This document shows, in pieces, positions 17,426 through 33,880 of a stretch of DNA of 39,557 nucleotides. The stretch comes from Acidobacteriota bacterium (GTDB lineage: Bacteria; Acidobacteriota; Terriglobia; UBA7540): the NCBI GenBank assembly GCA_902812415.1, contig CADDZJ010000029.1, forward strand, positions 1-39,557. Direction: 5' to 3'. The position numbers and the translations under genes were made by a program. The notes under the pieces were generated by a model. It searched no databases, was not told the DNA's origin, and saw only the letters and a program-made list of their open reading frames with translations. Position 1 is the stretch's first letter. Each line of letters opens with the position of its first letter.

Positions 17426-17504
17426 ACTGTGACGAGCGCCAAGTGACGAGCAAAAGCAACCAGAACCCTTGATTGATTTTTTTACCCCTCACTCATCATT
17501 CGTC

Positions 17505-17636
17505 AGAAGGTGTGAAAATATCGAATCTGTCATGCTGAACGCAGTGAAGCATCCCGGTATTGTGCGGAAAACAAAATGTGGGGATCCTTCGCTATCGCTC
17601 AGGATGACAACCGCCCCTAATTTTTTCACACCTTCT
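17505..17636 (+). repeat. Copy B of the 132-bp palindromic interspersed element
   Basis: The termini AGAAGGTGTGAAAATA (17505) and TTTTTTCACACCTTCT (ending 17636) are almost perfect inverted repeats. The core at 17528-17609 runs from TGTCATGCTGAACGCAGTGA to CGCTATCGCTCAGGATGACA and is itself a partial palindrome. The copy at 19942-20073 has the same 132-bp length; the copy at 1188-1317 is inverted. There is no coding capacity. Confidence 0.82.
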
Positions 17637-17802
17637 CACTGATCACTGTTGTTGGGATTCCTTGCAGGGCTTACTTTGAGCCGAAGACACCGAAGTGCTT
17701 CGCTTGCATTCAGTTTGCAAATAAATTGTCTCATTTGTCTCAGCGGTCTCCCTGGTCTCACATCAGAGGGCTAAAATAGCGAAGCGTGAAGCGGGTGAAC
17801 AG

Positions 17803-19637: not shown

Positions 19638-19925
19638 TTACTGCCGGAAGAGAGCGTTAAACTTCTTTTTGATATCCTCGCGGCTTGAAGGAGATGCGGC
19701 TGAGGACAGGGTCGCGGGCTGAAAATAGTCGCAGTAATTAGCGGCTTCTTTGTTGCGAACCCATTCAGCTTGGGTCTCTGCGCATTGCTGGTGTTTTGAG
19801 GGGTCGTAAAACCGGCAGTTGCGGCAGGAATGAAGGTCAGCGCCGCAGCGGAGGCATTCATCGCGGCTGCTGACCCTTTGTCCAGCAGAGAGATCGATCG
19901 ATTCGCCGCACTTCCAGCATTTCAT
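19638..19925 (-). CDS. Small cysteine-rich (zinc-ribbon-like) protein
   Basis: 95 aa. The cysteine pattern is CWKCG (C3, C6), CLRCG (C24, C27) and CRNC (C34, C37), then C47 and C65 in QQCAETQ and NYCDYF. This suggests one or two zinc sites, with YDPSKHQQC between them. The C-terminal 30 residues are Ser-rich, then basic (REDIKKKFNALFRQ). It lies downstream of rpoC on the same strand and could be the last gene of that transcript. The Shine-Dalgarno is weak. Copy C of the 132-bp element sits 16 bases upstream of the start. Function is unknown; it resembles conserved small zinc-ribbon hypotheticals. Confidence 0.75.
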   Translation of the reverse strand: MKCWKCGESIDLSAGQRVSSRDECLRCGADLHSCRNCRFYDPSKHQQCAETQAEWVRNKEAANYCDYFQPATLSSAASPSSREDIKKKFNALFRQ

Positions 19926-19941
19926 GACCTTGGATTCCAGC

Positions 19942-20073
19942 AGAAGGGCATGAAAATCTCAAAGCTGTCATGCTGAACGCAGTGAGGCATCCCCGTATTT
20001 AATGAAATGGAAATACCGCGATCCTTCGCTGTCGCTCAGGATGACAGTTATCCCTGATTTATTCACGCCTTCT
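19942..20073 (+). repeat. Copy C of the 132-bp palindromic interspersed element
   Basis: The termini AGAAGGGCATGAAAAT (19942) and ATTTATTCACGCCTTCT (ending 20073) are inverted repeats. The core at 19966-20046 runs from TGTCATGCTGAACGCAGTGA to CTGTCGCTCAGGATGACA. Its length is identical to copy B. It occupies the gap between rpoC and the small zinc-ribbon gene. Confidence 0.82.
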
Positions 20074-32666: not shown

Positions 32667-32739
32667 CAGGGGCGGAGGGATTCGAACCCCCACGACCGGT
32701 TTTGGAGACCGGCAGTCTAGCCGTTAAACTTACGCCCCT
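32667..32739 (-). tRNA. tRNA-Trp (CCA anticodon)
   Basis: The acceptor stem AGGGGCG/CGCCCCT, the anticodon stem CCGGT/ACCGG with loop CTCCAAA (anticodon CCA), and the T-loop TTCGAAT are all present. The 3' CCA is not encoded, unlike in the four upstream tRNAs. It lies between rpmG and secE, inside the operon. Confidence 0.95.
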
Positions 32740-32779
32740 ACTGACCTGACCGCACCCCTCAGTGTTCAGTGTCCCCAAA

Positions 32780-32929
32780 TTATTTCACTTCTTTATGCGA
32801 AGTGTGATGCCGGCAGGCAGGGCAAAACTTCTTGAGTTCCAGCCGGTCTTGGTTTTTCTTCTTATTTTTTGTCGTCGTATAATTACGATTCTTGCATTCA
32901 GAGCATTGTAGCGTGATGATTTCGCGCAT
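32780..32929 (-). CDS. rpmG: 50S ribosomal protein L33
   Basis: A 49-aa protein reading [20 protein letters not shown] at the start and ending [15 protein letters not shown]. Two CxxC pairs (CSEC and CPAC) form the zinc site of the C+ form of L33. The length is standard. It sits 40 bases upstream of tRNA-Trp in the same direction and about 350 bases after tRNA-Thr(GGU), in the position where tuf is found in E. coli. Confidence 0.95.
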
Positions 32930-33087
32930 ACACGTAAAAACGCCTCACCTGATGGGCGATGAATTCCTCAGATTTGAAAAGTTCCCTAGGAAAAAGAATG
33001 TTTTGCTGGGCGCCACCCCGTTCTTGTAAGCTCTAAGACCGCCCCTCACCGTGAAAGATTCGTTCTGTACTTTAAGCCGCTTAATGA

Positions 33088-33115
33088 ATTATAACAGGAT
33101 TTTTCAAAAAGTGAA
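33088..33115 (-). promoter_or_regulatory. Putative promoter of the rpmG-tRNA-Trp-secE-nusG operon
   Basis: Read on the minus strand: TTCACT (33110-33115), 16 bases, then TATAAT (33088-33093) with an extended TG upstream (TGTTATAAT). It would give a leader of roughly 150 bases before rpmG. The surrounding region 32930-33280 is AT-rich and contains no other recognised feature. Confidence 0.6.
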
Positions 33116-33280
33116 GCACTCTTTATGCCAAAGTTGAAAAGAATTTATCGTCTCGATTTGTAGTTTCACAAACCACAGATAATAAATGATTTATTTGCAG
33201 ATAAACACTTTGCGCGTTAAGTGTCACGTGTGCAAATATCTTCGCCTGCCTGGCATCGGCCAATCATTTTTTTGAATCGC

Positions 33281-33356
<76 letters not shown>

Positions 33357-33448
33357 CCCTCGAAAGCAGTGAAGAGTGACGAGTAACGAGTAAACAGCAA
33401 ACACCTATTTGGGACCCTGCTCGTCACTTATCACTATCCACTGCTGCT

Positions 33449-33523
33449 TGGAGCGGGAGACGGGAATCGAACCCGCGACCAACAGCTTGGAAGGCTGTGA
33501 CTCTACCACTGAGTTACTCCCGC
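33449..33523 (-). tRNA. tRNA-Gly (UCC anticodon)
   Basis: The acceptor GCGGGAG/CTCCCGC, the anticodon stem ACAGC/GCTGT with loop CTTCCAA (anticodon TCC), and the T-loop TTCGATT are present. The 3' CCA is encoded. It corresponds in order to glyT of E. coli. Confidence 0.96.
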
Positions 33524-33607
33524 CCTACTGTGCACAGAGACAAGAGACAAGAGGCGAGCGTCCATCGCGCCTTCTTTCTCATCCCTTGCATCTCAACTCT
33601 GTCTTTC

Positions 33608-33696
33608 TGGTGGACAGGGGAGGATTCGAACCTCCGTAGACCACATGGGCCGGCAGATTTACAGTCTGCTGCTTTTGACCGCTCAGCCACCTGTCC
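33608..33696 (-). tRNA. tRNA-Tyr (GUA anticodon)
   Basis: An 89-base class II tRNA with acceptor GGACAGG/CCTGTCC, an anticodon loop containing CTGTAAA (anticodon GTA), and a long variable arm GCCCATGTGGT. The T-loop is TTCGAAT and the CCA is encoded. It corresponds in order to tyrU. Confidence 0.96.
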
Positions 33697-33804
33697 AAAA
33701 TACTGAGGCAATGAGGCAAGAGACCGCAGGCAGTTGAACCGGCGGCGGTGAGGGTTGAGAACTGATTGTTGGTCTCTTGTCTCTCGTCTCGATATCTATA
33801 CTGA

Positions 33805-33880
33805 TGGAGCTGGCGAAGGGATTCGAACCCCTGACCCTCTGATTACAAATCAGATGCTCTACCAACTGAGCTACGCCAGC
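33805..33880 (-). tRNA. tRNA-Thr (UGU anticodon)
   Basis: The acceptor GCTGGCG/CGCCAGC, the anticodon stem TCTGA/TCAGA with loop TTTGTAA (anticodon TGT), and the T-loop TTCGAAT are present. The CCA is encoded. It is first in the tRNA cluster and corresponds to thrU. Confidence 0.96.

Follow-up and report, generated by a model that had tools for sequence, protein, structure and literature searches.

The ISMac2 MITEs of Methanosarcina acetivorans are 160 bp long, occur in 14 copies, and have 26-bp inverted repeats and 4-bp direct repeats (PMC3852290). In A. variabilis GTAG-15 and H. neapolitanus CGTC-1, a REP dimer is regularly found in the middle of a palindrome; the same report describes no dedicated transposase for CGTC-tagged REPs and treats their spread as an open question (PMC3733652). 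QMITE2 of Coxiella burnetii is a MITE containing a GTAG REP, with duplications of 7–11 nt, and its REP is a landing site for IS1111 (PMC5896051). In the REPINs of Pseudomonas fluorescens, which are linked to RAYTs, an inverted REP doublet with its spacer is the replicative unit (PMC3116915). Insertion sequences (ISs) that target REPs are already known (PMC1525189), and IS1272, a member of the IS1182 family, is reported to target stem-loops (PMC5678879). These accounts were available to us in part, and the comparisons made with them are limited to those parts.

The window, i.e., the whole stretch of 39,557 nucleotides that was analysed, contains three copies (A, B and C) of a repeat that is probably an IS1182-derived MITE (miniature inverted-repeat element) carrying a REP dimer and moved in trans. 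What is new is how its parts are combined; the parts themselves are known, and the repeat is not a new kind of thing. Like the ISMac2 MITEs, it is short and non-coding and has IS1182-family ends, and their 4-bp duplication is shared by the shell of a congener; unlike them, the element of this genome has a REP dimer, which the available part of the ISMac2 account does not mention, as its core, and a 3-bp duplication (PMC3852290). As in GTAG-15 and CGTC-1, the dimer lies inside a longer palindrome, and REP-free outer palindromes were not seen; however, the outer palindromes of those families are not traced to an IS in the part of the report that we had, whereas the present ones match IS1182 ends and come with target duplications, and a single type of shell holds both GTAG and TGTC dimers here (PMC3733652). 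A REP within a MITE is also what defines the likeness to QMITE2, although the account of the latter, as available, describes no link to IS1182 such as we find (PMC5896051). The inverted doublet is that of the P. fluorescens REPINs, for which neither IS-like ends nor target duplications are described in the corresponding part of the source (PMC3116915). With the CGTC-tagged REPs the core shares a TGTC tag, a stem starting with AT, and an arrangement in inverted dimers; that class was reported from five phyla that, in the part available, do not include Acidobacteria, and the present case is from the Acidobacteriota (PMC3733652).

The features in the window are as follows, "no strand" marking those to which none was assigned.

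17506–17635, no strand: element copy B, 130 bp between the duplicated bases
17506–17518, plus strand: terminal inverted repeat of copy B, GAAGGTGTGAAAA
17623–17635, minus strand: terminal inverted repeat of copy B, other end
17503–17505, plus strand: target duplication TCA, left of copy B
17636–17638, plus strand: target duplication TCA, right of copy B
17528–17553, plus strand: TGTC-tagged REP-like hairpin of copy B, arm 1, stem ATGCT/AGCAT
17583–17609, minus strand: TGTC-tagged REP-like hairpin of copy B, arm 2, stem ATCCT/AGGAT
17443–17505, no strand: host repeat H, left part, with GTGACGA heptads, core GAGCAAAAGCAACCAGAACC..., and heptads on the other strand
17636–17650, no strand: host heptad array, right part, TCACTGATCACTG
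19943–20072, no strand: element copy C, flanks GCA/TCA (2/3 matching)
19966–20046, no strand: REP dimer of copy C
1189–1316, no strand: element copy A, old, with degraded ends, in the opposite orientation
1213–1293, no strand: REP dimer of copy A

A sequence-only reading had proposed a 132-base repeat with copies B and C at 17505–17636 and 19942–20073. The repeat is real and reaches beyond the window: with copy B as query, its own genome (4.84 Mb in 261 contigs) yielded 41 matches, with E values from 7e-64 to 8e-5. Copy C is among them, with 80% identity over query positions 9–132, as is copy A, which matched on the opposite strand (85% over positions 8–105) and is thus the inverted form it had been taken for, with degraded ends (one recognisable with 3 mismatches in 13 bases, the other unrecognisable). 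Both ends were kept in 20 of the 34 copies inspected, one end in 7 and neither in 7. In this classification up to 4 mismatches in 13 were allowed at each end, and 7 short or overlapping matches were omitted; a contig edge cuts two of the one-ended copies and one of the end-less ones. The best 30 copies were aligned with their flanks, and the ends were sharp at AGAAGG/CCTTCT in the best of them. These limits agree with those first proposed, except that the A and the T at the extreme ends are part of a 3-bp duplication, and the mobile unit, of about 130 bp, is therefore best read as GAAGG...CCTTC (17506–17635 in copy B and 19943–20072 in copy C). As is usual for a MITE, the copies have no coding capacity, lengths of about 113–132 bp, and 13-bp inverted ends.

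Copy C does lie just upstream of a gene start, as had been noted; 17 rather than 16 bp separate it from the start codon, ATG at 19925, of an ORF of 95 codons on the minus strand. It was absent at the syntenic gap in all three congeners examined. In one of these (G001, locus L200) the gap holds a different palindromic repeat, CTCAGCACTCAGCCATCAGCAAAGGAGC....

Three features had escaped the sequence-only reading, i.e., the paired REP hairpins that make up the core, the existence of a second family with the same ends, and the location of copy B inside a repeat of another family. Going inward from the 13-bp inverted end, a short spacer, unequal on the two sides, is followed by a pair of inverted arms; both arms are REP-like hairpins tagged with TGTC, and they stand head-to-head. 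The stem has 5 bp, a 2x2 mismatch and 2 bp, the class being defined by a stem of 8–9 bp and a loop of 4–5 bases. The stem is ATGCT/AGCAT in one arm and ATCCT/AGGAT in the other, each arm thus having its third base pair swapped. With the base at this position left free, it formed a Watson-Crick pair in 64 of 67 arms from the own genome, compared with 22.5 expected for independent bases, and in 29 of 31 arms from relatives (13.5 expected). In an alignment of 50 cores, 96.1% of cells were paired in the two local REP hairpins, compared with 92.6% after shuffling, and there were 31 two-sided changes compared with 9.9. By contrast, the long hairpin that would join the arms was close to shuffled (86.5% versus 86.1%), with pairing failures at three column pairs in 46, 28 and 43 of the 50 cores. 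It follows that each arm is selected, or was copied, as a separate hairpin. These 50 cores were drawn from 57 listed, after dropping L086 as spurious and L043, L048, L093, the second L143 match and two L146 matches as differing in arm length or chance-like; L021 was reversed by hand, and all cores were oriented with the C-bearing arm first, which lowers the apparent variation. REP dimers without a shell also occur, both in the own genome and in relatives, and the core must therefore spread in some other way as well.

The 14-base end of the element had 60 matches in the own genome at up to one mismatch, compared with 2 for the reversed control. Among 36 two-ended copies collected, 19 had TGTC cores and 17 belonged to the second family, in which the same ends surround an unrelated GTAG-tagged REP dimer, TGTAGCGGCGATC.... 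Of the end pairs collected at spacings of 40–3000 bp, none enclosed a shell free of REPs.

Copy B is inserted in repeat family H, whose heptad GTGACGA had 59 forward and 55 reverse matches, with a single match for the control. A heptad (at most one mismatch) lay within 21 bp of 30 of the 36 two-ended copies, compared with 2730 of 20,000 random positions in the same loci. Genome-wide, H consists of GTGACGA arms around the core GAGCAAAAATCAATCCGAGGTTCTGGTTGCTTTTGCTC, with many plus/minus pairs, and is often itself located between TGTCATTC-type REP arms. Across the insertion junctions, the 7-base period was kept at 0.59 of positions after removal of 3 bases of the right flank, and at 0.15–0.29 after removal of 0, 1, 2, 4, 5 or 6 bases. 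As no removal other than that of 3 bases brings the heptads back into phase, 3 bp (TGA/TCA) are duplicated on insertion. The target-site duplication was exact in 22 of the 36 copies (mean 11.7 with shuffled flanks, 0/2000 shuffles as high); outside heptads, judged from 12-bp flanks, the 3 bp matched in 11 of 20 (mean 6.6, 29/2000 as high). The inverted ends, this duplication and the dozens of dispersed copies support the original suggestion of a non-coding element moved by a transposase encoded elsewhere, which is backed also by the lack of copy C in three congeners and by IS1182-family transposases with the same kind of ends. Targeting of hairpin loops was not supported for the element of this genome, the flanks being paired at a mean of 3.67 of 10 positions versus 4.55 after shuffling (500/500 as high).

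In the own genome, contig C200 carries an exact end, GAAGGTGTGAAAAA, and about 280 bp downstream of it begins the ORF of a truncated IS1182 transposase, which scored 139 bits on model NF033551, below the 270-bit cut-off. The own genome yielded no intact IS1182 bounded by GAAGGTGTGAA on both sides. In the relative G006, however, a full-length IS1182 transposase (405 bits, over the cut-off) lies between GAAGCTGTGAAAATATCTCGC and GAAGCTGTGAAATAATTG, flanked by CTC on both sides, in an IS of about 3.0 kb. Its transposase is 70% identical over 170 residues to the C200 fragment, of which it is the nearest relative among the loci compared. GAAGCTGTGAAAATATCTCGC resembles the right-type end of the MITE at 16 of 17 positions and GAAGCTGTGAAATAATTG the left-type end at 15 of 17; position 5 of the end is C in this IS and G in the MITE. 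A full-length transposase gene bounded by near-identical termini was thus seen in a relative, and a truncated, one-ended copy in the own genome. On the same model L297 scored 405 bits (over the cut-off) and L296 417 bits, and L294 matched in two pieces; in the relatives, then, transposases of the IS1182 model do lie between such ends. Inside the IS end on C200 (locus L310), the truncated gene is preceded by a short ORF, which, from the usual fold of such short ORFs, we take to be AbrB-like. In L296 (120–320 and 1985–2000), from a class-level relative, an IS1182 with GGAGCTGTGAAAAAAATC ends has entered a GTAG-type REP at its loop and duplicated TAT, giving TAT/TAT flanks.

A second type of shell was found in the congener G003, where GTAG dimers lie within a different end, GAGTCTGTGTGAAAA, that gave 60 + 68 matches (128 in all; control 0 + 0). 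Exact 4-bp duplications were present in 15 of 23 copies, most of them from G003 and a few from the neighbouring genomes G002 and G030, compared with 2.8 in shuffles. The flanks of 22 copies were palindromic more often than after shuffling, with 5.27 positions paired versus 4.43 (0/500 as high), which supports loop targeting by this shell. Ends of this type also lie on either side of IS1182-family transposases, at eight places distributed over six relatives (L294, L302, L303, L304, L327, L328, L329 and L334). In six GAGTCTGTGTGAAAA-type pairs of IS length, 5.83 flank positions were paired versus 5.13 (80/500 as high) and exact 4-bp duplications were seen in two of the six; one of these pairs (own C200, 909 bp) was set aside, the transposase match not being enclosed by it. 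Stem-loop targeting by IS1272, as described in the part of the account that we had, would fit the palindromic flanks of IS1182-type shells (PMC5678879).

Could the element instead be a REPIN, i.e., a doublet of REPs that a REP-associated tyrosine transposase (RAYT) moves in single-stranded form, with the outer repeats a mere extension of the doublet? The inverted REP pair, a core of about 82 bp, is found family-wide without the outer ends also, two RAYT genes in the own genome, at 99 and 102 bits, score above the NCBIfam cut-off of 80, and GTAG REPs lie on both sides of the RAYT in 7 of 30 loci. However, a pair of TGTC REPs flanked none of these 30 loci (any TGTC match occurred at three, the nearest at about 350 bp), i.e., no cognate RAYT flanked by the same REP was found among them for the TGTC class. 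The GAAGGTGTGAA end was also present in 0/30, and a RAYT or a TIR-associated tyrosine transposase element (TIRYT) as carrier of these ends was rejected on these 30 loci; the same ends, moreover, enclose two unrelated types of REP. A 3-bp duplication is not expected of an enzyme of the IS200/IS605 type. On this evidence we regard a REPIN origin as unlikely. Both RAYT genes of the own genome (L205 and L226, on contigs C120 and C198) are among the seven loci with GTAG REPs on both sides, and those REPs are of the type that forms the core in the second MITE family.

The ends might also derive from an element of the IS5 group rather than from IS1182, since the E. coli IS5A end GGAAGGTGCGAATAAG equals GAAGGTGTGAATAA at 13 of 14 positions; with an IS5 end so similar, the family cannot be told from the end alone. 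The transposases adjoining such ends in this clade nevertheless match the IS1182 model best, and an IS5-type gene lay between GAAGGTGTGAA ends in none of 35 DDE_Tnp_1 loci checked (5 from the own genome and 30 of the 49 matches in eight relatives). An IS5-group origin was rejected for this reason, and we would give it very little credence. Least probable of all is that the whole 130-bp palindrome is kept for a long transcript hairpin (a terminator, mRNA stabiliser or regulatory RNA), mobility being secondary. Copy B folds strongly as single-stranded DNA (z = -5.5; 0/200 shuffles fold as well), and copies C and A are close to gene ends. However, the covariation favours the local REP hairpins and not a single long functional one, congeners do not share copy C at its position, and the element had no match when the whole window was searched against Rfam at gathering thresholds, which returned only five tRNAs. 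The genes for these tRNAs lie at 32669–33880 of the window on the minus strand; between them are heptad arrays, near 33369 and near 33423.

If the element is an IS1182-derived MITE, its GAAGGTGTGAAAA ends would be recognised by an IS1182-type transposase acting in trans, and each insertion would duplicate 3 bp of the target, for the most part TGA/TCA within the heptad arrays of H. We infer from the shared ends that such a transposase moves the element. The shell would have arisen by internal deletion of an IS, and the REP dimer presumably rides in it as cargo, having entered probably by its own mobility or by rearrangement.

In six loci of a Bacteroidetes MAG, TGTC dimers were found within GAGACTGTGTGAAAACAT ends, an IS1182-like shell, with 4-bp duplications in three of the six by eye (ATTC, TTTC and TTTC). 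The contig scan was targeted at the pattern of a TGTC dimer in a shell and shows existence rather than frequency; it returned 13 stretches, of which at least three (Cytophagales, Jeotgalibacillus and Saccharibacteria) appeared by eye to be chance-like. With two types of shell and two REP classes in the genus, plus the Bacteroidetes MAG, the combination seems to have arisen repeatedly. We found no report of MITEs with IS1182 ends and REP dimers in the open-licence papers searched, and the recurrent pairing of an IS1182 shell with a REP dimer appears unreported. A TGTC dimer between recognisable IS1182 ends offers a concrete, testable route for the spread of REPs of the CGTC/TGTC class, and such elements explain nested palindromes that would otherwise look like unexplained composite repeats. 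More tentatively, MITE shells of the IS1182 type might be a general vehicle for REP dimers, particularly of the TGTC/CGTC class. REPs and IS1182 might then feed each other, REPs attracting IS1182 and IS1182 ends carrying REPs, because the elements and their parent IS enter hairpin loops, those of REPs included. In a Gastranaerophilales MAG (L155 and L157), single TGTC hairpins, TGTCATCCTGAACTTGTTTCAGGATC, were observed within GAAGTGTGAAAAAATTTC-like inverted ends.
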